Source: Candidatus Solibacter usitatus (lineage in GTDB: Bacteria; Acidobacteriota; Terriglobia; Bryobacterales; Bryobacteraceae). Taken from it: a stretch of DNA of 39,230 bases. The notes under the pieces are model-generated. The model searched no databases, had not been told where the DNA came from, and worked only from the letters and a program-made list of their open reading frames with translations. Where the stretch lies: the NCBI GenBank assembly GCA_016185465.1, contig JACPNO010000018.1, positions 1 through 39,230 of the forward strand, in the 5' to 3' direction. Position 1 is the stretch's first letter. Each line of letters opens with the position of its first letter. Shown piece by piece: positions 19,526 through 29,590 of this stretch. Position numbers and translations under genes: made by a program.

Positions 19526-20545
19526 CTATTTGGCGGCCACGTATTTCTTCGCAATTCGCAGCGCCATCGTGCCTTGCGCGGTCACGACCTCGTACCTGCC
19601 GACAGCGCCGATGAGCACGTGCGCGGCCCAGGGCTCAAAGCCGTGGTCGTTCACCAGCCAGCGCACCATATCGGTGGTGGCAAGCTGCAGCGCGCGGTCG
19701 AGAGAACTCGCGAATTCCGGCTGAGCGCCCAGGCTGATCAGGTCGTCGGCGGTTTCAACCCGCGGCCCCGTCACTCTCGCGCCTTTGCGCACTTCAACGG
19801 AAAATTCCACGTCCATGGAAGTCTCGACGCCGGTGCCTGTCGGCTCGCCATCGGCCATCAGCGCGTGGCCATCGCCCATGAAAAGCAAACCGCCGGGATG
19901 AAACACCGGCAGGATCACGGTCGCGCCCTCGCCGATCTGGTTGTAATCCAGATTGCCGCCGTAGTTGCCGGATGGAGTGGAGGTCGGCGCGTAGTCTCCC
20001 TGCGCCGCCACGCCCACGCAGCCTAGCATGGGCCGTACCGGAAATTCCAGCGCGATACGGTTGCTGACCGGTTCGCGCAGCTTGGTAGTGCCGCGCGCCA
20101 GATCGATATCCCACGGCACCAGCGTGGATGAATTTTTGCGAACCAGATCGGCTTTGTAATCGTTGCCGTAGATTTTTTCCACGTACTCCGGCATCAACGC
20201 GAACAAGCCCAACCGCCACGCCGACCATCCCCAGTTGCGGTTCAAACGCACTTTGCGGAAATGCACCAGCAGCGCATCGCCGGGCTCGGCGCCCTCGACG
20301 TAGAACGGTCCGGTGAGCGGGTTGGAGGGCTCGGAGCGCTGGGCATCCTTTTCATCCTGACCGCCGGCGTCCAGGGTTTTCGTAATGACCACGTCGCCGG
20401 GACGAATGCGCGCGCCAACGGCGTTGGTATGCGAGAACGTGCGGTAGTAAGTCTGCGGCTCAAAGCGATGCGTCTCGGCCTGCAGTGCCAGCGTGCAGGC
20501 CAGTGCCGCCGCGAGCTTCAAATGGCTAAACAATCTGTTTGGCAT
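19526..20545 (-). CDS. Secreted acetamidase/formamidase-family protein
   Basis: This 339-residue protein belongs to the FmdA/AmdA family of small-amide hydrolases. Family marks include the GPFYVEGAEPGD segment near residue 85, the GCVGVAA segment and a MGDGHALMADGE stretch that helps form the metal site. An N-terminal signal peptide (~1-22, ending LQAE) is clear, so the enzyme acts outside the cytoplasm, unlike the classical cytoplasmic formamidase. The substrate may be an amide other than formamide. Its first 20 bases overlap the end of the GMC oxidoreductase gene, so translation is probably coupled and the two may share a pathway. Confidence 0.87.
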   Translation of the reverse strand: MPNRLFSHLKLAAALACTLALQAETHRFEPQTYYRTFSHTNAVGARIRPGDVVITKTLDAGGQDEKDAQRSEPSNPLTGPFYVEGAEPGDALLVHFRKVRLNRNWGWSAWRLGLFALMPEYVEKIYGNDYKADLVRKNSSTLVPWDIDLARGTTKLREPVSNRIALEFPVRPMLGCVGVAAQGDYAPTSTPSGNYGGNLDYNQIGEGATVILPVFHPGGLLFMGDGHALMADGEPTGTGVETSMDVEFSVEVRKGARVTGPRVETADDLISLGAQPEFASSLDRALQLATTDMVRWLVNDHGFEPWAAHVLIGAVGRYEVVTAQGTMALRIAKKYVAAK

Positions 20546-22175
20546 ATTCGTGAGTAATGTAATCGCAGGCTCGCACCGTGATCGCCATCATCGTGAGCGT
20601 TGGATTCTGGCAGCCGCTCGAGACCCAGCACGCGCCATCGGTCACAAAAATATTGGGCACGTCGTGCGCCTGGCAATATTTGTTGACCACGCTGGTGGCC
20701 GCATCGTTGCCCATGCGCGCGGTGCCCACCTCGTGAATGCAGAAACCCGGCACGGAGTGGCGGCCGGCCTTTTGGACATCTTTCGCGCCGGCGGATTCGA
20801 TCATTTCGGCAGCCTGCTCGCGGGCATCCTCCCACAGCTTCTTTTCGTTGTCGCTCCAATCGGCGTGGACCTTCAGCACCGGAATTCCCCAGGCGTCCAC
20901 GCGGTCGCGATCGATCTCGACGTAGTTCTCCTTGCGCGCCAGGCACTCGGCCCAAACGCCCAGGTTGATCCGCCACAGTCCCACGCGTACGGCTTTTTTG
21001 TACGACGCCCCGAACCCCGGAGCATCGGTGGAAAATTGCGGGCTGCTTCCGCCCTGGTACCCGTAGCCTCGGATGAATCCGTTGGTGGATTTTTCGCGCA
21101 CATTGCGAAAACGGGGAAGGTAAATCCCGTTGGGACGGCGCGGCGGACCCGCCCACGGCTTGGCTTCAATCTGCGGCATGACGCCGTGCGCGCCGCCTTC
21201 GTAGATATGGTCCATCACGTGTTTGCCCAGCGCATCGCTCGAATTGCAAATGCCGGAATTCATCAGCAGACGCGTGGATTCGAGCGTCGAAGCGCACAGC
21301 AGCACGATCTTGGCGCGCACTTCCCGCGGCTCACGCGTGAGGCGATCGATGTAGGCAATCCCGGCGGCCTTGCCGTCTTTCATTACGACGTGGCTGGCCA
21401 CGGCATCGGTTTGCAGCGTGAGGCGCCCGGTTTTCGCGGCGTCGGCGATGGTGGTCCACGGACTGCTGAAATAAGAAAACGTGCTGCAGCCCTGTTCGCA
21501 GGGCCCGCAATAGTGGCAGGCCGCGCGGCCGTTGTGCGCCTTGGTGAGAATCGCGACGCGCCCGATGGTGACCGTGCGCCCAAAATTCTTTTTGACCGCC
21601 GCCTTCAGGATTTCCTCGCCGCAAGTCATCTCCATCGGCGGTTGGAAAATGCTATCCGGCAATTGCGGCAAGCCCTCCGCCTGGCCGCTGATGCCCACAT
21701 AGCGCTCGACGATCTCGTAGTACGGCACCATTTCGTCGTACGAGATCGGCCAATCGTCGCCGTAGCCGTCGTGGCTGGCCGCTTTGAAATCCAGATCGCT
21801 CATGCGATAACTTTGCCGGCCCCAACTTAGCGAGCGCCCGCCCAGCACGCGCTGGCGAATCCAATGGAACGGCTTGGACTGCGTGTAGGGATTTTCGCGA
21901 TCGTTGACGAACCAGTCGGAATTGTATTCGCGGCAGGCGTAGCAGAGGCCCTGGATGGGCCGGTCCTTCTTCACCGTGGGCGAATAACCTAAAAACGGAA
22001 CCTGCCAGCTTTGTTTGTGCTCGGTGAAATCTTTGGGCGTGATTTTCTTGCCGGCTTCGAGCAGACAGACCCGCATGCCGGCTTCGGTGAGGCGTTTGGC
22101 AGCCCATCCGCCGGTGGCGCCGGAACCGACTACAATCGCGTCAAACGGATCCTTGGGAGCAACGATTTGCAGCAT
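20526..22175 (-). CDS. GMC-family FAD oxidoreductase with extra cysteine cluster
   Basis: This 549-residue flavoenzyme should oxidise an alcohol or sugar. The FAD motif G17-S-G19-A-T-G22 lies at the N-terminus, and the C-terminal GMC region contains the expected HEVGTARMG and CQNPTLTMMA segments. A C-x2-C-x2-C-x3-C cluster at about C220, C223, C226 and C230 suggests a structural or redox metal site; similar clusters occur in gluconate-2-dehydrogenase-like GMC proteins. I chose the ATG at 22175 because the FAD domain begins there. The open frame extends to 22349, but that part overlaps hemD on the other strand and shows no domain. No signal peptide is evident. A gluconate-dehydrogenase small subunit gene is not adjacent. 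Confidence 0.9.
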   Translation of the reverse strand: MLQIVAPKDPFDAIVVGSGATGGWAAKRLTEAGMRVCLLEAGKKITPKDFTEHKQSWQVPFLGYSPTVKKDRPIQGLCYACREYNSDWFVNDRENPYTQSKPFHWIRQRVLGGRSLSWGRQSYRMSDLDFKAASHDGYGDDWPISYDEMVPYYEIVERYVGISGQAEGLPQLPDSIFQPPMEMTCGEEILKAAVKKNFGRTVTIGRVAILTKAHNGRAACHYCGPCEQGCSTFSYFSSPWTTIADAAKTGRLTLQTDAVASHVVMKDGKAAGIAYIDRLTREPREVRAKIVLLCASTLESTRLLMNSGICNSSDALGKHVMDHIYEGGAHGVMPQIEAKPWAGPPRRPNGIYLPRFRNVREKSTNGFIRGYGYQGGSSPQFSTDAPGFGASYKKAVRVGLWRINLGVWAECLARKENYVEIDRDRVDAWGIPVLKVHADWSDNEKKLWEDAREQAAEMIESAGAKDVQKAGRHSVPGFCIHEVGTARMGNDAATSVVNKYCQAHDVPNIFVTDGACWVSSGCQNPTLTMMAITVRACDYITHEYAKQIV

Positions 22176-22205: not shown

Positions 22206-22211
22206 TATAAT
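22206..22211 (+). promoter_or_regulatory. Consensus -10 hexamer TATAAT for the hemD operon
   Basis: A perfect TATAAT ends 7 bases before the hemD ATG at 22219. There is no clear -35 and no Shine-Dalgarno sequence, so the message is probably leaderless. This would drive the whole hemD to atpE run unless there are internal promoters. Confidence 0.5.
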
Positions 22212-22218
22212 AACGGCG

Positions 22219-23037
22219 ATGTCGTTCGCCGGCCGCAAAGTTCTCGCGTTCGAAAGCAGGCGCGCCGCTGAAATGGCGGAATTGATTCGCCGCCAGAAGG
22301 GCCAGCCGGTGATTGCGCCGTCGATGCGCGAAGTTCCTATTGAACGCAACGAAGAAGCCTTTCACTTTGCCGAACGCCTGTTTGCCGGTGAGTTCGACAT
22401 GATGATTCTGCTCACCGGCGTGGGCACCCGCTTTCTGGACAAATTGCTGGCCACGCGCTATCCCGCCGGGCAATTCGCGGAAGCGCTGCGTAAATTGACG
22501 GTGGTCGTGCGCGGCCCGAAACCCGCCGCCGTGCTGCGCGAAATGAATGTGCCGATTGGCATACAGGTTCCCGAGCCGAACACCTGGCGTGAACTGCTGG
22601 CCGCCACCGACGGCCGGCCGGAGCGCCGCATCGCTGTGCAGGAGTACGGCAAGTCAAATCCAGAATTACTGGCGGGTTTGAGTGCGCGCGGCGCGGAGGT
22701 TACCGCCGTTCGCGTGTACCAATGGGAGCTGCCCGAAGACACAGGCCCGCTGCGCGACGCTGCCGGACGTCTGGCCGCGGGCGAGATCGACGCCGTGTTT
22801 TTCACCACGTCCGTGCAGTTAGAGCATGTGCTACAAATCGCCGCCGAAGCGGGTCTGGAAAATCGGGTGCGTGCGGCTTTGGCAAAGGTCTTCGTGGCGT
22901 CCATCGGGCCCACCACCAGTGAAGCGCTCAAAGAAAGCGGCATTCGCGTGGATTTCGAGCCCAGCCATCCCAAGATGGGCGTTCTGGTGCAGGAAGCGGC
23001 TGCGCGCATGGAAAACGTGGTCGAGGAAACGCGATGA
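22219..23037 (+). CDS. hemD: Uroporphyrinogen-III synthase
   Basis: This 272-residue protein should cyclise hydroxymethylbilane to uroporphyrinogen III, the branch-point step of haem and other tetrapyrroles, in the cytoplasm. The two-lobed HemD pattern is visible: an opening VLAFESRRA, a mid-protein YGKSNPELLAGL segment, then an RVYQWELP linker and an FFTTSVQLEHVL segment, ending with SIGPTTSEALKESG. Sequence conservation in this family is low but these segments are typical. Its end overlaps the next start by four bases (ATGA). Location upstream of a hexahaem cytochrome gene in the same unit makes functional sense. No other haem gene is in the window. Confidence 0.87.
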   Translation: MSFAGRKVLAFESRRAAEMAELIRRQKGQPVIAPSMREVPIERNEEAFHFAERLFAGEFDMMILLTGVGTRFLDKLLATRYPAGQFAEALRKLTVVVRGPKPAAVLREMNVPIGIQVPEPNTWRELLAATDGRPERRIAVQEYGKSNPELLAGLSARGAEVTAVRVYQWELPEDTGPLRDAAGRLAAGEIDAVFFTTSVQLEHVLQIAAEAGLENRVRAALAKVFVASIGPTTSEALKESGIRVDFEPSHPKMGVLVQEAAARMENVVEETR

Positions 23038-24179
23038 ACCGCCGCCGCGCCCTGCAAAATTTCTTGGCCTTCGCCGCAACCTCGCCGCTTTGGCCGCAGC
23101 AGGAGCCGCGTCTCACTAACGATCCCGATGACCCCGCCTGGCCCGTCAATGTGCACGAATTCGAAGCCATCGCCAAGCGCAAATTGCATCCGTTAGCCTA
23201 CGATTTCATCGCCGGCGGCGCCGAAGGCGAACAAACGCTGCGCGCCAATGTCGAAGCCTATCAACGCGTGTTTCTGGTGCCGCGCGTCATGGTGGATGTG
23301 AGCACGGTCGACACTTCAATCGAACTGCTCGGCTTCAAGCTGGAAAAGCCGATCATCATCGCTCCCACCGGCGGCAAGAATCTGGTGATCCCGAACGCAG
23401 AGATCACCGTCGCGCGCGCCGCTGAGGCCAGCCACACGGTCGTGACCACTGGCTCCGGCGCCGACAAAGTGATGGATGAGGCTGCGAACGTGATCTGGTG
23501 GTCGAACACCGCGGGGCACGAAAAGAAATCCGACGCTGCCAGCTACGCCAAACGCATGGAGGACCGCGGCGCGAAAGCCATCGTGGTGACCGTGGACAAT
23601 CCGTACCAATCCACGCGCGATCGCAACAATCGCAATCGCTTCGACTACGGCTACATGCAGACCGGCGTGCCGAACGAAAAAGTTCCGCCGCGCACGCCGG
23701 CGCTGGCCGGTATGTGGCAGCCGCACGCCGCCAACATGACGTGGGACTATGTGGGCTGGCTGCGCAGCGCGGCCAATTTGCCGGTGATCCTGAAAGGGAT
23801 TCTCGCGCCCGAAGACGCGCGGCTGGCGGTTGAGCACGGCGCTTCCGCCATCGTGGTTTCCAATCACGGCGGCCGTCAATTGGATGGCGCCATCGCCACA
23901 CTCGACGCGCTGCCTGGCGTGGTGGAAGCGGTGGCAGGCAAGATTCCGGTGCTGATGGATGGCGGCATCCGGCGCGGCGCCGATATTTTGAAAGCGCTGG
24001 CCTTCGGCGCCAAAGCCGTGCTGGTGGGCCGCGCGCCGCTGTGGGGCCTGGGCGCGTTCGGGCAAGCCGGCGTCGAGCGCGTGCTGTGGATGCTCACTAT
24101 GGAATTGAAAGTCGCCATGGCGCTGGCTGGCAAGCCGCGCATCGACGCCATCGATCGCAGCCTGGTGCGGCGCGCATGA
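23034..24179 (+). CDS. FMN-dependent 2-hydroxyacid dehydrogenase with a Tat-like signal
   Basis: This 381-residue protein is of the L-lactate dehydrogenase/glycolate oxidase family (TIM barrel, FMN). The active-site segment SNHGGRQLDG contains the catalytic H278, and the FMN phosphate segment DGGIRRGADILKALAFGA follows. The family's PIIIAPTGG segment is also present. The N-terminus MNRRRALQNFLAFAA has two adjacent arginines before a hydrophobic stretch, which suggests Tat export of the folded flavoprotein; that is unusual, since most family members are cytoplasmic or membrane-attached. Substrate could be lactate, glycolate or another 2-hydroxyacid. It overlaps hemD and the cytochrome gene by four bases each, which suggests the cytochrome may accept its electrons. 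Confidence 0.9.
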   Translation: MNRRRALQNFLAFAATSPLWPQQEPRLTNDPDDPAWPVNVHEFEAIAKRKLHPLAYDFIAGGAEGEQTLRANVEAYQRVFLVPRVMVDVSTVDTSIELLGFKLEKPIIIAPTGGKNLVIPNAEITVARAAEASHTVVTTGSGADKVMDEAANVIWWSNTAGHEKKSDAASYAKRMEDRGAKAIVVTVDNPYQSTRDRNNRNRFDYGYMQTGVPNEKVPPRTPALAGMWQPHAANMTWDYVGWLRSAANLPVILKGILAPEDARLAVEHGASAIVVSNHGGRQLDGAIATLDALPGVVEAVAGKIPVLMDGGIRRGADILKALAFGAKAVLVGRAPLWGLGAFGQAGVERVLWMLTMELKVAMALAGKPRIDAIDRSLVRRA

Positions 24180-24676
24180 GATGGGCGCTGGCGGTGCTCT
24201 TGTGGGCGCTGCCGCTGTGCGCGGAAAAGACGCATGAACTCTGCGCTCCCTGTCATGCGCAGCAAGTCGCGGACTCCCAAACGCATCCGCATTTCCAAAA
24301 GGGAATCAGTTGCGATGCGTGTCATGGCGCGAGCGTGAAGCATCGTAGTTCCACGGGTGCGTCTGCGCCGGATAAAGTCGCTTCATCGGATGAAGTGCCC
24401 GCGCTGTGCGGCGCCTGTCACGCCGCCGAAAAGAAGGAGTACGCCGCGAGCAAGCACGGTGTGCTGGTGCTGGCTCGCGCCAAAGTGAAGGCGGCGAATT
24501 GCACCAGCTGCCACGGCGTGCATAGCCTGCGCGCCGCGCAGCAAACCGAAGCGCAGTGTCAAAGATGCCATGCCGCGCTGCCTGCCGCGTGCAAGGCGGC
24601 GCCGGCGTCGAAAGCCGCGGCGGTCTCCTGTATGAATTGCCACGCGCGTCACACGTTGCGGGCGAAAAGCGGATGA
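24176..24676 (+). CDS. Periplasmic hexahaem cytochrome c
   Basis: This 166-residue protein has a signal peptide (~1-16) and six C-x-x-C-H haem sites starting at C23, C46, C78, C109, C128 and C152. That is one haem per about 25 residues. Extra histidines between the sites could be distal ligands. It should carry electrons in the periplasm. It resembles small NrfB/c7/c3-like or doubled-CxxCH proteins, but I cannot name a family. I chose the ATG at 24176 because it overlaps the previous stop as ATGA and gives a clean signal peptide. The next gene, atpZ, also begins in an ATGA overlap. Adjacency to a flavin dehydrogenase and ATP-synthase F0 genes is unusual. Confidence 0.92.
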   Translation: MRWALAVLLWALPLCAEKTHELCAPCHAQQVADSQTHPHFQKGISCDACHGASVKHRSSTGASAPDKVASSDEVPALCGACHAAEKKEYAASKHGVLVLARAKVKAANCTSCHGVHSLRAAQQTEAQCQRCHAALPAACKAAPASKAAAVSCMNCHARHTLRAKSG

Positions 24677-24888
24677 AAAAATCACCCATGGCCCTGGCCA
24701 ACGAATACCTGGAGCTGGCTTTTGTTCTGCCGGTTTCCACATTTGTCGGCTATGCCATCGGCTACTTGTTGGACAAAGCTTTTGGCACGCACTTTTTGTA
24801 TCTGGTCTTTCTCATCCTGGGTACTGTCGGCGGGTTTGTGCAGCTCATTCGCAGGTTTACGCGGGACAAGACCGATGACCCTCAATGA
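24673..24888 (+). CDS. atpZ: AtpZ-type small membrane protein of ATP synthase operons
   Basis: This 71-residue protein has two hydrophobic helices (about 15-33 and 40-60). It includes the G-Y-x3-G-Y-L-L-D-x2-F-G-T pattern of the AtpZ/AtpI family, which is linked to assembly of the c-ring or Mg/Ca transport with the F-type ATP synthase. It begins in a four-base overlap with the cytochrome gene and overlaps the following gene by 14 bases. The position directly before atpI-like and atpB genes supports the call. Confidence 0.87.
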   Translation: MKKSPMALANEYLELAFVLPVSTFVGYAIGYLLDKAFGTHFLYLVFLILGTVGGFVQLIRRFTRDKTDDPQ

Positions 24889-25267
24889 GCCATTGTTCTA
24901 CGATCGTGCGCTCGCCCGCATCGTTCGCTTCATGCTGGCGCTCGCGGCGATCGGGACGGTTGCCGTTTGGTTCCACGGCGGCTGGCGCTGGAGCGCCGGT
25001 TTTCTGGCCGGCTCGCTGGTTTCCTACCTTAGTTTTCGCGGATTTGAGCGGGTAGCGAATTCGCTCGGACCCGCCAGCGAAGCCAAGCCGCCGCGAGCGC
25101 GAGTCGCAATTCTACTGGGTGTGCGTTATCTGCTGTTGGCCGCTGCGGGCTATGCTATAGTGAGGTTTTCCACGCTGAGTTTGACGGCTGCATTGCTGGG
25201 TTTGTTCGTGTCGGCGGCCGCGGTCATCCTCGAAATTCTGTACGAATTAATCTATGCCCGAACATGA
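24875..25267 (+). CDS. atpI: ATP synthase subunit I-like membrane protein
   Basis: This 130-residue protein has four hydrophobic segments (about 18-35, 39-55, 80-97 and 100-122), as in ATP-synthase subunit I (ATP-synt_I). Sequence identity in this family is weak, so the call rests on topology and position between atpZ and atpB. It overlaps both neighbours by 14 bases. The role is probably c-ring assembly or stability. I chose the ATG at 24875; an earlier in-frame ATG at 24722 would lie entirely within the atpZ gene. Confidence 0.78.
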   Translation: MTLNEPLFYDRALARIVRFMLALAAIGTVAVWFHGGWRWSAGFLAGSLVSYLSFRGFERVANSLGPASEAKPPRARVAILLGVRYLLLAAAGYAIVRFSTLSLTAALLGLFVSAAAVILEILYELIYART

Positions 25268-25994
25268 AATTTGGCTCACCCGGCTGTTCAACGATTCGCT
25301 CGCCCCGCTAGGCCGCTCAGTGCTGGCAGCGGTGAACCTGCACGCTGAAAATCCCGGCCGCCCCTGGACCAACTTCATCACCATGGAAATTCTGGTGGCG
25401 CTCATCATCATCGTGGTTTTCGCCATTCTCCGTGGCCGCCTTTCCATGGACCGGCCCGGAAAATTTCAGCAAACGTTCGAGGTCCTTTATGACAGTCTAA
25501 AGGGCGAGACGCAGCAGAACATCGGACATTCAGGCCCGAACTATCTGCCGTTCATCGGCACCCTCGGCATTTTCATTCTGTTTTCGAATTTGATCGGAAT
25601 CGTCCCCGGGTTCGAGTCGCCCACCATGAATCCCTCCGTCCCGGCGGGGTGCGCGATGCTGGTTTTCTGTTACTACAATTTTCTGGGTTTCAAGCAAATG
25701 GGTGTGGGCAAATATCTGGCCCACTTTGCAGGCCCCATACCCGCTTTGGCGATTTTGATGATTCCCATCGAAATCGTGAGCCACCTGGCTCGGCCAGTCT
25801 CTCTCACGATTCGTCTATTCGCCAACATGCTGGCCGGCGAAAAAGTGACCATGGTTTTTCTCAGCCTCACTTATTTGGTGGCGCCGGCGCTTTTCATGGG
25901 GCTGCATGTGTTCGTTTCATTCCTGCAGGCTTATATTTTCGTGTTGTTGACGATGATGTACGTTGCGGACACCGTGCCGCACGAAGAACATTAA
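25254..25994 (+). CDS. atpB: ATP synthase F0 subunit a
   Basis: This 246-residue integral membrane protein should form the ion half-channels of the F0 motor. The family motif S-L-T-I-R-L-F-A-N-M is present, with the essential arginine at R187, followed by LAGEKV. Five or so hydrophobic helices are visible, and an N-terminal extracytoplasmic segment precedes the first. Length is normal. It overlaps the subunit I gene by 14 bases and is followed after 97 bases by atpE. The b, delta and F1 subunit genes do not follow in this window. Confidence 0.97.
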   Translation: MPEHEIWLTRLFNDSLAPLGRSVLAAVNLHAENPGRPWTNFITMEILVALIIIVVFAILRGRLSMDRPGKFQQTFEVLYDSLKGETQQNIGHSGPNYLPFIGTLGIFILFSNLIGIVPGFESPTMNPSVPAGCAMLVFCYYNFLGFKQMGVGKYLAHFAGPIPALAILMIPIEIVSHLARPVSLTIRLFANMLAGEKVTMVFLSLTYLVAPALFMGLHVFVSFLQAYIFVLLTMMYVADTVPHEEH

Positions 25995-26091
25995 TACCGG
26001 CTTACTGCAGCTTCCAGTGTGAGACCGGCATCCCATAGGTGATGACGGGAACCACCTCCTGGCAGGCAAATCTTAGACAAGGAGCAACACC

Positions 26092-26394
26092 ATGAACGTC
26101 AAACTCACTTTGATCCTGCTCGCGCTTTTCGTATTCGCCAGCCCGATCTTCGCCGCCACCGCCACTCCCGAGGCGACTTATCACTGGGTCGCCATAACTT
26201 CCGGATTTTCCATGGCCATCGCTTCCGGCCTCTGCGGTTTGGCGCAAGCCAAAGCGGTCGCCGCCGCCGCCGAGGGCATGGGACGCAATCCCGGAGCTTC
26301 CGCAGCCATTCGCGGCGCGCTCATCATCGGCCTCGTACTGATCGAGTCGCTGGCCCTCTACACGCTGGTCATCATCTTCGCCAAAGTATCCTAG
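26092..26394 (+). CDS. atpE: ATP synthase F0 subunit c with signal-peptide-like N-terminus
   Basis: This 100-residue protein contributes the rotating c-ring. The R65-N-P loop separates the two helices, and the ion-binding carboxylate is E85. Q52 is 13 residues before R65, and S86 and Y90 follow E85, at the spacing of the Na-binding Q32/E65/S66/Y70 set in Ilyobacter tartaricus; the family Thr67 is Leu here and Pro28 is Cys. So the Na signature is partial and H+ use remains possible. Residues 1-21 form an additional hydrophobic stretch ending in FAA, like a cleavable signal, which makes the protein longer than usual (about 75-90). A GGAG ribosome site lies eight bases before the ATG. A hairpin follows the gene. 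Confidence 0.95.
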   Translation: MNVKLTLILLALFVFASPIFAATATPEATYHWVAITSGFSMAIASGLCGLAQAKAVAAAAEGMGRNPGASAAIRGALIIGLVLIESLALYTLVIIFAKVS

Positions 26395-26586: not shown

Positions 26587-27216
26587 ATGCGACGAATCCT
26601 AATTACCTTCTTATTTGCAACCATCTCTTTGCTGGCTCAGCCGGTATCCATCGGAGTGAAAGGCGGTGTGCCGATTACCGACGCCTTCCATACCATACAG
26701 GGCGATGAAGCGAGCTACGTTACCAACACCAAGCGCTACCTGGTCGGTCCCACGGGCGAAGTTCATCTGCCTCTGGGGTTTTCGATCGAAGTCGATGCGC
26801 TCTACAAGCGGCTGGGTTACCAATACCAGGCCTTTCCTACGACCGGGACCGTGAGCGCGCAGACGGTTGCGAACTCGTGGGAATTTCCCTTGCTCGTCAA
26901 ATGGGCTTTTCCGGGTGGGCCTATCCGGCCCTTTGTCGATGCCGGAGCCTCTTTCCGGCACATCAGCGGCGTGCACCAGTTCCAGGAAATATTTGGAGCG
27001 GGCAGTTCATCCACAAATAATCCGGTCGAGTTCCACAAATCCACCGACCAAGGCTTGGTCTTCGGCGGCGGCATTGAATTCAAGTTTGGGCGCCTCCGCA
27101 TTTCGCCGGAACTGCGCTACACGCGCTGGGGAGGAGAAAATTTCCGCGATCCGGTGCAAGCGTTGTTGCGTACCAATCGCAATCAGGGGGACTTCCTGCT
27201 CGGAATTACTTTCTAA
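26587..27216 (+). CDS. Outer-membrane beta-barrel protein
   Basis: This 209-residue protein has a signal peptide (~1-17) and then alternating polar/hydrophobic strands with frequent Gly and aromatic residues, ending in F as outer-membrane barrels commonly do (GDFLLGITF). The family looks like the OmpA-transmembrane/PorT-like barrels of about eight strands that are common in Acidobacteriota. No function can be assigned. I chose the ATG at 26587 because the signal peptide starts there; the frame is open back to 26527. No clear Shine-Dalgarno sequence is present. Confidence 0.82.
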   Translation: MRRILITFLFATISLLAQPVSIGVKGGVPITDAFHTIQGDEASYVTNTKRYLVGPTGEVHLPLGFSIEVDALYKRLGYQYQAFPTTGTVSAQTVANSWEFPLLVKWAFPGGPIRPFVDAGASFRHISGVHQFQEIFGAGSSSTNNPVEFHKSTDQGLVFGGGIEFKFGRLRISPELRYTRWGGENFRDPVQALLRTNRNQGDFLLGITF

Positions 27217-27286: not shown

Positions 27287-29590
27287 ATGGCCCCGGCTCT
27301 CCTCAGCAAGCAACAAGACTTGCAATCGGTGGTGCGGCAATTTGAGCTGCTCATGCAGCAGGGTGATTCTCCCATTCGTGCGATCCGGCGCCAGGCCGCC
27401 TCCGTGGGCGACTTTCGCGATGTTCCGGACGCCGTTCATCCTAGATTAAAAGCCGCCCTCGAGAGCCGGGGCATCGCCAAACTTTACAGCCACCAGGCGG
27501 AGGCGGTCGCGCTGTCGGCGGCCGAAAGGAACCTGGTGGTTGTAACCCCTACCGCCAGCGGCAAAACGCTGTGCTACAACCTGCCGGTTTTTGATTTGCT
27601 CCTGCGCGAGCCCGAGGCGCGCGCGCTGTATCTATTTCCCACCAAGGCGCTGGCCGAGGATCAACTGCACGAATTCCAAAAGATGGCCGACGCCATCGGC
27701 GCCGATATTCGCGCTTTCACGTACGACGGGGACACGCCGCAGGACGCGCGAAAAACCATACGCGCGCGCGCCAACGTGGTGTTCACCAATCCCGACATGC
27801 TGCACAGCGGCATCCTGCCGCATCACACGCGCTGGGCCAAGGTGTTTGAGAACCTTCGCTACATCGTGATCGACGAATTGCATTCCTGCCGCGGCGTTTA
27901 CGGCAGCCATCTGGCTAACGTGCTCCGACGGCTGAAACGGATCTGCGCGTTCTACGGCGCCGCGCCGCGCTTCATCTGCTCTTCGGCGACCATTGCCAAT
28001 CCGCGCGAGCTGGCGGAGGCGCTCACCGAATCCGCTTTCGACCTGGTGGACGTGAATGGCGCGCCTTCGGGGGAAAAGTATTTCATTTGCTACAACCCGC
28101 CGGTGGTCAACGAGCGTCTGGGAATTCGCCGGAGTTATATCCACGAAACGCGGCGTCTCGCGCTCGAGCTCATCGAGCGGGGCCAGCAGACACTGGTGTT
28201 CGCCAACAATCGCCTCGCCACCGAAGTGCTGGTGACGTATCTGAAAGACGCCGTGGATCGCGGACCGCTGGAAAACGCCGTGCGCGGATATCGCGGCGGC
28301 TATCTGCCGCGCGAGCGCCGCGAGATTGAGCGCAAATTGCGCGACGGAGAAATTCGCGCCGTGGTCTCGACCAATGCCCTGGAACTGGGCATCGACATCG
28401 GATCGCTCGACGCTGTGGTGATGGCCGGGTATCCGGGCACGATTGCCTCCACCTGGCAGCGGGCGGGCCGCGCCGGGCGCCGTCAGACGCCCTCGGCCGC
28501 GGTGCTGGTGGCGTCGAGCGCGCCGCTCGATCAGTACATCGTCGAGCATCCCGATTATTTTTTCGGCCAGCCGCCGGAACACGCCCACATCAATGCCGAC
28601 AATTTGGAAATTCTGCTGGGCCACCTGAAATGCGCCGCTTTCGAGCTTCCGATTGCCGACGGCGAAAAATTCGGCCCGCACGCCGCCCATGAAATGTGCC
28701 GGTTCCTCGAGGAATCGGGCTTCCTACATCATTCCGCGGGGTCATGGCACTGGACGTCGGAGACGTATCCCGCCGATTCCATCAGCCTGCGCGCGGTCAC
28801 CAGCGACAATTTTGTCGTGGTCGATGTCACCGGCGAACCCAAGGTAATCGCCGAAGTGGATTTTCCGTCCGCGCTGACCACACTGCACGAGAAGGCCATC
28901 TATCTTCACGAAGCCCGGCAATTTCACGTCGAGCGCTTCGACTATGACGAGCGTAAAGCTTACGTGAAGCGCGTCAACTGCGATTATTTCACCCAGGCCA
29001 TCGACTACTCGCGCGTCACCGTGCTGGAAGAATTCGAAAAGGAATCGCAAGCCGCTGCATTTCGCGTGCATGGCGATGTGCGCGTGAACCGGCAAGTGGT
29101 CGGCTTCAAGAAGATCAAGTTCTACACTCAGGAAAACGTGGGGGCAGGGAAGCTGTCCATGCCGGAGCAGGAGATGCATACCACGGCCTTCTGGCTGCAT
29201 TTTCCCGCGGAGTTCCTGGCCCGCTTCCCGGATCTCACGCCCACCGAAAAGCTGGATGGCCTGATCGGCATGGGCCACGCGCTGCGAACCATCGCGGCAT
29301 TGCTGGTGATGTGCGATCCGCGCGATCTGGGCGTGGCCGTGACGGAAGACATCGCGGGATCGCTCGCCACCTTCGAGCCGAATCTCTACCTGTACGACAA
29401 CTATCCGGGCGGAATCGGGCAAAGCGCCCCGCTCTATCGCATGACCGGCACGCTGCTCGGGCGTACGGCGGAGTTGCTCGCCGCCTGCGTGTGCGAATCA
29501 GGCTGCCCCTCGTGCGTTGGCGCGGCGGGGGAAAACGGCGCGCGCGCCAAGCACGCCGCCATGCGCATCCTGAGCGAATTGTTACAGTAA
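27287..29590 (+). CDS. mrfA: MrfA/YprA-type DEAD/DEAH-box DNA helicase (DUF1998)
   Basis: This 767-residue superfamily 2 helicase should unwind DNA with ATP, and MrfA relatives repair mitomycin C damage. Walker A is at about 87-94 (TPTASGKT), and motif II is D196-E-L-H199. Motif III (SSATIANP) and a C-terminal helicase lobe with ELGIDIG and QRAGRAGR follow. The C-terminal DUF1998 region has the expected cysteines in the pattern C-x-C-x3-C-x2-C (CVCESGCPSC), which bind a metal. All parts are complete. It starts a plus-strand group; the PfkB kinase gene follows after seven bases. Confidence 0.93.
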   Translation: MAPALLSKQQDLQSVVRQFELLMQQGDSPIRAIRRQAASVGDFRDVPDAVHPRLKAALESRGIAKLYSHQAEAVALSAAERNLVVVTPTASGKTLCYNLPVFDLLLREPEARALYLFPTKALAEDQLHEFQKMADAIGADIRAFTYDGDTPQDARKTIRARANVVFTNPDMLHSGILPHHTRWAKVFENLRYIVIDELHSCRGVYGSHLANVLRRLKRICAFYGAAPRFICSSATIANPRELAEALTESAFDLVDVNGAPSGEKYFICYNPPVVNERLGIRRSYIHETRRLALELIERGQQTLVFANNRLATEVLVTYLKDAVDRGPLENAVRGYRGGYLPRERREIERKLRDGEIRAVVSTNALELGIDIGSLDAVVMAGYPGTIASTWQRAGRAGRRQTPSAAVLVASSAPLDQYIVEHPDYFFGQPPEHAHINADNLEILLGHLKCAAFELPIADGEKFGPHAAHEMCRFLEESGFLHHSAGSWHWTSETYPADSISLRAVTSDNFVVVDVTGEPKVIAEVDFPSALTTLHEKAIYLHEARQFHVERFDYDERKAYVKRVNCDYFTQAIDYSRVTVLEEFEKESQAAAFRVHGDVRVNRQVVGFKKIKFYTQENVGAGKLSMPEQEMHTTAFWLHFPAEFLARFPDLTPTEKLDGLIGMGHALRTIAALLVMCDPRDLGVAVTEDIAGSLATFEPNLYLYDNYPGGIGQSAPLYRMTGTLLGRTAELLAACVCESGCPSCVGAAGENGARAKHAAMRILSELLQ

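Follow-up and report, generated by a model that had tools for sequence, protein, structure and literature searches.

A predicted flavoenzyme–hexahaem cytochrome pair between a hemD-like gene and the F0 genes of Bryobacterales

Flavin mononucleotide (FMN)-dependent enzymes of the PF01070 family include glycolate oxidase, LldD, lactate oxidase and mandelate dehydrogenase, and in characterised members two tyrosines, Tyr24 and Tyr129, touch the substrate. In flavocytochrome b2, the yeast L-lactate:cytochrome c oxidoreductase, a homologous FMN_dh domain acts outside the cytoplasm together with a haem protein, namely a b-type haem domain fused to the enzyme. Here we describe a member of this family, termed FMNdh, whose partner is instead a separate six-haem c-type cytochrome. 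Both are encoded in a 39,230-nucleotide stretch of Candidatus Solibacter usitatus (Bryobacteraceae; JACPNO010000018.1), hereafter the window, which is one entire contig of a 2.3 Mb draft genome that is 73% complete. The two genes, hereafter the cassette, lie between a hemD-like gene and the F0 genes atpZ, atpI, atpB and atpE. Acidobacterial atp loci are split between subunits c and b (PMC4154653), and the F0 block of the window, ending after subunit c, has this same split; it differs from the described locus in being preceded by the hemD-like gene and, in six genera, by the cassette.

We read the flavoenzyme and the cytochrome as a self-contained, Bryobacterales-specific electron-input pair that is co-expressed with F0 at the junction of the hemD-like gene and atpZ, and we give this reading a probability of roughly 0.6; its elements of export, electron transfer and flow direction, substrate and single transcript are those that we infer. 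In the window, successive genes overlap by the four bases ATGA at hemD/FMNdh (23034-23037), FMNdh/cytochrome (24176-24179) and cytochrome/atpZ (24673-24676), atpZ/atpI and atpI/atpB overlap by 14 bases each, and 97 bases separate atpB from atpE. A first-pass annotation of this DNA had these coordinates and spacings right to the base, and its starting point, 22206, coincides with the first T of a TATAAT box. The same annotation proposed that one co-directional run joins a haem-synthesis gene, a periplasmic route from 2-hydroxy acids to a cytochrome, and the F0 motor.

The strongest regularity concerns the pair itself. FMNdh lies immediately 5′ of the cytochrome gene in 52 of the 53 orthologous loci whose upstream flank could be used, mostly with overlaps of 4 or 10 bases; this count leaves out G009 and G215, which start at a contig edge, and G162, which has a remote cytochrome (G-numbers denote genomes, g-numbers genera and L-numbers loci). 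Likewise, a first sample of 61 genomes contained 8 with both genes, 1 with FMNdh only, 2 with the cytochrome only and 50 with neither (Fisher p = 1.3 × 10−7, uncorrected for kinship). Because FMNdh so consistently precedes the cytochrome, the pair is, judged from gene order, the coherent, functional unit of the run.

PF01070 matches FMNdh over its full length at 354.5 bits (curated cut-off 24.9), and Lys230, His254, Arg257, Asp157, Arg164, Asp285, Arg289 and Arg309 (glycolate oxidase numbering) are kept in 55 orthologues, the catalytic Lys, His, Arg and Asp being invariant in 55/55. On this score and these residues, assignment to the FMN_dh family holds, and the redox chemistry is probably kept. 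FMNdh shares the full-length domain and the first five of these residues with glycolate oxidase and the other PF01070 enzymes named above; it differs from them in its twin-arginine signal, its multihaem cytochrome partner and both substrate-binding tyrosines. Tyr24 is Phe in 54 of 55 orthologues, with the same change in the PDB alignment, and Tyr129 is gone in 55/55, replaced by Thr (43), Gly (8) or another residue (4; Ser, Leu or Asn); an ungapped PDB alignment places Ala or Thr, not Tyr, opposite this position. The reference row for this comparison, which we take to be that of glycolate oxidase, agrees with the PDB rows around both tyrosines. With the two tyrosines lost, a 2-hydroxyacid substrate is not to be assumed; the substrate may be, though not with certainty, a 2-hydroxy acid. 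Thus, the 2-hydroxyacid-to-cytochrome route of the first-pass annotation is supported as regards a dedicated enzyme–cytochrome pair, and not supported as regards its substrate. An APTGGKNL motif sets the subfamily apart, and FMNdh stays under the NCBIfam cut-offs for LldD, lactate oxidase and MftD (best 227.8 bits against 376); membership of MftD (mycofactocin) was ruled out by score (225.7 against 470.9 bits).

The altered active site does not fix the chemistry, and multihaem cytochromes serve both directions of electron flow, so the cytochrome might conversely donate electrons to FMNdh, which would then reduce a periplasmic acceptor. We hold this reverse flow to be highly improbable, given that every orthologue keeps the proton-abstracting His and the Asp that partners it, and that the known FMN_dh enzymes are, to our knowledge, oxidases or dehydrogenases.

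All full-length FMNdh orthologues begin with a twin arginine, followed by a short hydrophobic stretch, frequently with an A-x-A/Q-like end, and a conserved SPL motif, and TatC is encoded in the window's genome and in relatives. This N-terminus is consistent with export by twin-arginine translocation (Tat), which is predicted and not certain. The cytochrome, in turn, has a hydrophobic, Sec-signal-like N-terminus without a lipobox. These signals agree with the export of both proteins that the first-pass annotation had claimed.

The cytochrome carries exactly six CxxCH motifs, invariant in 55 aligned sequences save in one row cut short at the first motif, and six further histidines (H37, H39, H56, H94, H116 and H159) are kept in the same alignment, which together give the number required for six bis-His haems. 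Cytochrome-c assembly proteins are encoded in the window's genome and in relatives. By its motifs the window cytochrome is a multihaem c-type cytochrome, presumably exported. Remote profile similarity links it to TIGR03508 (MtrA/DmsE-type; E = 3.3 × 10−7) and to octahaem nitrite reductases (E ~3 × 10−6), and it matches PDB chain 6r2q_A (E = 2.5 × 10−7), which is labelled cystathionine beta-synthase and which we take to be the MtrA chain of an MtrCAB structure. In contrast to these types, however, the window cytochrome has six haems in 166 residues and falls far under the family cut-off; membership of the MtrA/DmsE decahaem family was ruled out by the haem number and by a score of 30.0 against 192.2 bits. 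An AlphaFold model built from 46 sequences reached a predicted local distance difference test (pLDDT) score of 84.8 and a predicted template modelling (pTM) score of 0.73, an earlier one from 8 sequences having been too poor (pLDDT 64.7); a fold search with the better model gave no significant match (best E 0.096). A 13th cysteine, C139 (24590-24592, + strand), lies outside any CxxCH and is kept in 53 of 55 cytochromes.

We then placed the pair in its genomic context across a family sample of 237 genomes, in which the cytochrome was present in 56 genomes of 17 genera, the hemD-like gene in 157 and atpB in 221. The order hemD-FMNdh-cytochrome-atpZ(I)BE occurs in 22 genomes of six Bryobacteraceae genera (g1, that of the window, g4, g5, g57, g85 and g88). 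The co-directional run proposed in the first-pass annotation is therefore conserved beyond chance, its order being kept among relatives rather than in none of them, and its junctions recur: hemD and FMNdh overlap in 19 of 21 loci, FMNdh and the cytochrome gene in 29 of 30 (by 4 bases in 20 and by 10 in 9), and the cytochrome gene and atpZ are spaced by at most 9 bases in 31 of 31, with a 4-base overlap in 17. The commoner layout has the hemD-like gene directly 5′ of atpZIB (61 genomes), with 565–725 bases from hemD to atpB and hemD–atpZ junctions that are comparably tight (4-base overlaps in 11/25; at most 30 bases in 22/25). Where the cassette fills it, the gap measures 2.06–2.47 kb (21 genomes); G140 has the full order with atpB cut by the contig end and is hence absent from this count, and G116, where a gap of similar size reflects displacement of atpI from atpB with no cassette inside, was not counted as filled. 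Eight genomes (g24, g63 and g66) carry FMNdh-cytochrome-atpZ without hemD, two of these contigs stopping shortly after atpZ, and the pair occurs without atp genes in its flank in g32, g54, g56, g72 and three genomes of sister families. Taken together, these layouts indicate that a widespread hemD-like–F0 operon has received, or in some genera retains, the cassette. Two minor cases concern the F0 side: G039 was rejected as a cytochrome–atp link broken by a contig end, the 189 bases after its cytochrome gene not encoding atpZ; and the F0 block is itself interrupted in two cassette-bearing genomes, by ~2 kb between atpZ and atpI in G246 and by ~1.5 kb between atpI and atpB in G116 (L159, L306).

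In ~20 genomes the cassette is found apart from atp genes, and it is missing from most atp loci, so that the functional unit with F0 put forward at first is not supported by the comparison; there is no sign that the cassette belongs to the ATP synthase. The relocated copies, which have their own promoter-like box, and the many atp loci without the cassette would also fit a hitch-hiking explanation, in which the cassette landed in an operon with strong and constant expression and is kept there for expression, with no physiological tie to HemD or F0. We consider this rather unlikely, as the cassette occupies the same position, with tight junctions, across six genera with hemD and three without it, and its departures look clade-wise, not random. 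In the FMNdh tree, layouts cluster by clade, with 4–5 label changes (unlinked and hemD-linked classes) against ~17 in shuffles. Since linked lineages stand on both sides of the family's deepest split, one early insertion with later departures is possible, and repeated insertions likewise. Six g56 genomes combine an empty hemD–atpZ site with a cassette on another contig of the same genome. Across the genomes, the junction is met in nature empty, filled or with the cassette relocated, which makes it possible to ask whether transcript sharing with ATP synthase matters.

The hemD-like gene proved to be of a particular type. Its product (locus HemD) scores 130.4 bits against HEM4 (cut-off 27.5), and the only solved structures that it matches in the PDB are those of Thermus uroporphyrinogen-III synthase (UroS; 1wcw, 3d8n). 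Its best NCBIfam matches, PRK05928.2 and PRK07239, are both below cut-off, a PHROGs scan gave no match, and its clade has its own invariant motifs. All 19 relatives searched encode another HEM4 domain away from the locus (149–243 bits, the 149-bit one cut by a contig end), and 14 of them also hold a locus-type copy (109–136 bits). In eight of nine proteins scanned the off-locus domain is fused to a TP_methylase (CobA-type) domain, and the ninth stands alone; several of the CobA-HemD contigs carry a cytochrome-assembly/HemX-like gene 3–7 kb off. Unlike the locus HemD with its Thermus likeness, a stand-alone canonical HemD (G010) matches only PDB entries that we take to be the Pseudomonas, Shewanella and human enzymes. 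In the window's own genome, 73% complete as it is, only the locus copy was found. By these comparisons, the locus HemD is a second, Thermus-type paralogue and not the housekeeping copy, although it could yet have UroS activity. A haem-synthesis role, as the first-pass annotation had it, is accordingly not upheld, and a HemD match beside a cytochrome gene is no sure sign of haem synthesis. We rejected haem supply as the default explanation of this neighbour, because hemD–atp loci are mostly cassette-free and canonical HemD, usually a CobA-HemD fusion, is encoded elsewhere.

These results bear on the idea that haem synthesis, 2-hydroxyacid oxidation, the cytochrome and F0 form one purpose-built functional module. 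The conserved order and junctions speak for it, as does the fact that a HemD-family gene adjoins the run's dehydrogenase gene and the one for a six-haem protein. Nevertheless, the 61 genomes with cassette-free hemD–atp loci, the canonical HemD elsewhere in 19/19 relatives, the lost substrate tyrosines, and the occurrence of the cassette without hemD (g24, g63, g66) or away from atp genes (g32, g54, g56, g72) make such a module very unlikely.

Next, we considered how the run might be transcribed. A −10-like box, defined as at least a 5/6 match to TATAAT within 16 nucleotides of the start codon, is present near the hemD ATG in 21 of 55 hemD loci, against a mean of 0.66 and a maximum of 4 in shuffles. 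It also precedes FMNdh where this is the first gene (6/8 hemD-less atp loci and 12/25 other loci), and it is absent before FMNdh behind hemD (0/22), the cytochrome gene (0/43), atpZ behind the cytochrome gene (0/24) and atpE (0/54); in 8 of the 22 FMNdh genes behind hemD, a box-like hexamer lies further upstream, within hemD. A Shine-Dalgarno-like motif precedes 20 of these 22 genes, as opposed to 7 of 55 hemD genes. As the box recurs before whichever gene is first, we infer that this gene carries the promoter and that the genes downstream depend on it. In leaderless bacterial genes, those of Acidobacteria included, the first T of TANNNT lies ~12 bp from the start codon (PMC3160421), and the box in the window has this geometry, which suggests that the run from hemD to atpE is one leaderless transcript.

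According to the electron-input reading, FMNdh would be Tat-exported, probably with FMN already bound, and would oxidise a small substrate, possibly a 2-hydroxy acid, in the periplasm; its electrons would pass to the bis-His hexahaem cytochrome and on to the respiratory chain. At the hemD-like–atpZ junction (22 genomes, including the window's), the hemD promoter would drive the cassette, probably on a leaderless mRNA, and translational coupling would join its synthesis to that of the F0 proteins. Cassette and F0 would then be tied by co-expression and not by a shared complex, and the HemD paralogue would be a neighbour, not a shown haem supplier of the cytochrome. A bolder version, in which an undescribed periplasmic oxidoreductase comprises a Tat-exported FMNdh with a re-modelled site, a non-classical substrate, its own hexahaem wire and a leaderless transcript shared with ATP synthase, is a tentative possibility.

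Several observations weigh against the electron-input reading. G026 has a cytochrome–atp arrangement without FMNdh, and g14 (G013, G186; L078, L320) has hemD-FMNdh without adjoining cytochrome or atp genes, so that neither linkage is strict. The box counts come from related loci and hence are not independent, and no protein that would take electrons from the cytochrome was identified. Moreover, the hydrophobic stretch after the twin arginine is short and the SPL core is more conserved than is usual for signal peptides, as might be expected if FMNdh were cytoplasmic, its neighbours merely co-transcribed and the cytochrome serving another partner. A cytoplasmic enzyme nonetheless appears quite unlikely in view of the invariant twin arginine, the frequent A-x-A/Q-like end and the near-obligate pairing with an exported cytochrome.

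Finally, we examined how widely the parts are distributed. An FMNdh alignment scan of ~85,000 genomes confined close relatives (at least 54% over the matched part) to the Bryobacterales group, in metagenome-assembled genomes labelled Bryobacteraceae, Bryobacterales, Bryobacter, Candidatus Sulfopaludibacter or Acidobacteria, with two labelled Acidimicrobiia; the next relatives, at 41% or less, came from Chloroflexi, Actinobacteria and one gammaproteobacterium. The close relatives bear out the Acidobacteriota affiliation that the first-pass annotation had assumed. In a phylum sample of 396 Acidobacteriota genomes, 10 of the 395 besides the window's had weak multihaem matches only (best E 2 × 10−19), full-length cytochrome orthologues scoring E 4 × 10−49 or better. 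The locus is thus made of known parts in a new arrangement, confined to Bryobacterales in the collections searched. In line with the first-pass annotation, no description of a hemD-FMNdh-cytochrome-F0 unit was found in the open-access literature (subscription papers not covered). The comparison reveals an order more conserved than the sequence alone could show, and its meaning shifts from a haem module to a probable electron-input cassette. Little is known of the respiratory inputs of Bryobacteraceae, a family widespread in soils, peat, groundwater and lakes, and a dedicated flavoenzyme–multihaem pair whose active site is altered offers a concrete candidate for an electron-donor pathway that would be new.

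Table 1 Features of the run in the window, with coordinates counted from its first base.
Feature	Coordinates	Strand	Basis and remarks
TATAAT (−10-like) box	22206..22211	+	Ends 7 nt (nucleotides) upstream of hemD ATG; predicted start of leaderless transcript for whole run
HemD-family (HEM4) protein, Thermus / PRK05928.2-PRK07239 type, 272 aa (amino acids)	22219..23037	+	Pfam HEM4 E = 7.4 × 10−38; PDB, Thermus UroS only
FMN-dependent alpha-hydroxyacid-dehydrogenase-family flavoenzyme (FMNdh), 381 aa, N-terminal RR signal	23034..24179	+	FMN_dh E = 7.7 × 10−106
Tat-like signal of FMNdh, MNRRRALQNFLAFAATSPLWPQ	23034..23099	+	Sequence; RR and SPL invariant in FMNdh alignment; export predicted
Hexahaem c-type cytochrome, 166 aa, predicted exported	24176..24676	+	Six CxxCH; Pfam Cytochrome_C7 / Cytochrom_c3_2
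Sec-type signal peptide of cytochrome, MRWALAVLLWALPLCA	24176..24223	+	Sequence; hydrophobic N-terminus in aligned orthologues; cleavage site predicted
atpZ (ATPase_gene1), 71 aa	24673..24888	+	Pfam
atpI (ATP-synt_I), 130 aa	24875..25267	+	Pfam
atpB (F0 subunit a; ATP-synt_A), 246 aa	25254..25994	+	Pfam, NCBIfam
atpE (F0 subunit c; ATP-synt_C), 100 aa, final gene of F0 block	26092..26394	+	Pfam

Three neighbouring genes flank the run. Downstream of atpE lies a gene for a small outer-membrane beta-barrel protein (OMP_b-brl_2; 26587-27216, + strand), which did not turn up at any other locus mapped, and then a helicase-like gene (27287-29590, + strand), which again follows atpE in G001, G014, G020, G202 and G241 (~69–75% identity). 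Upstream, a GMC oxidoreductase of ~550 amino acids is encoded divergently from hemD (20526-22175, − strand) and has its own TATACT box ~9 nucleotides upstream of its start. With a box near the start of each, the two divergent genes may both be leaderless, and the same divergent layout recurs in G021, G122, G125, G240 and part of g5 (72–82% identity).

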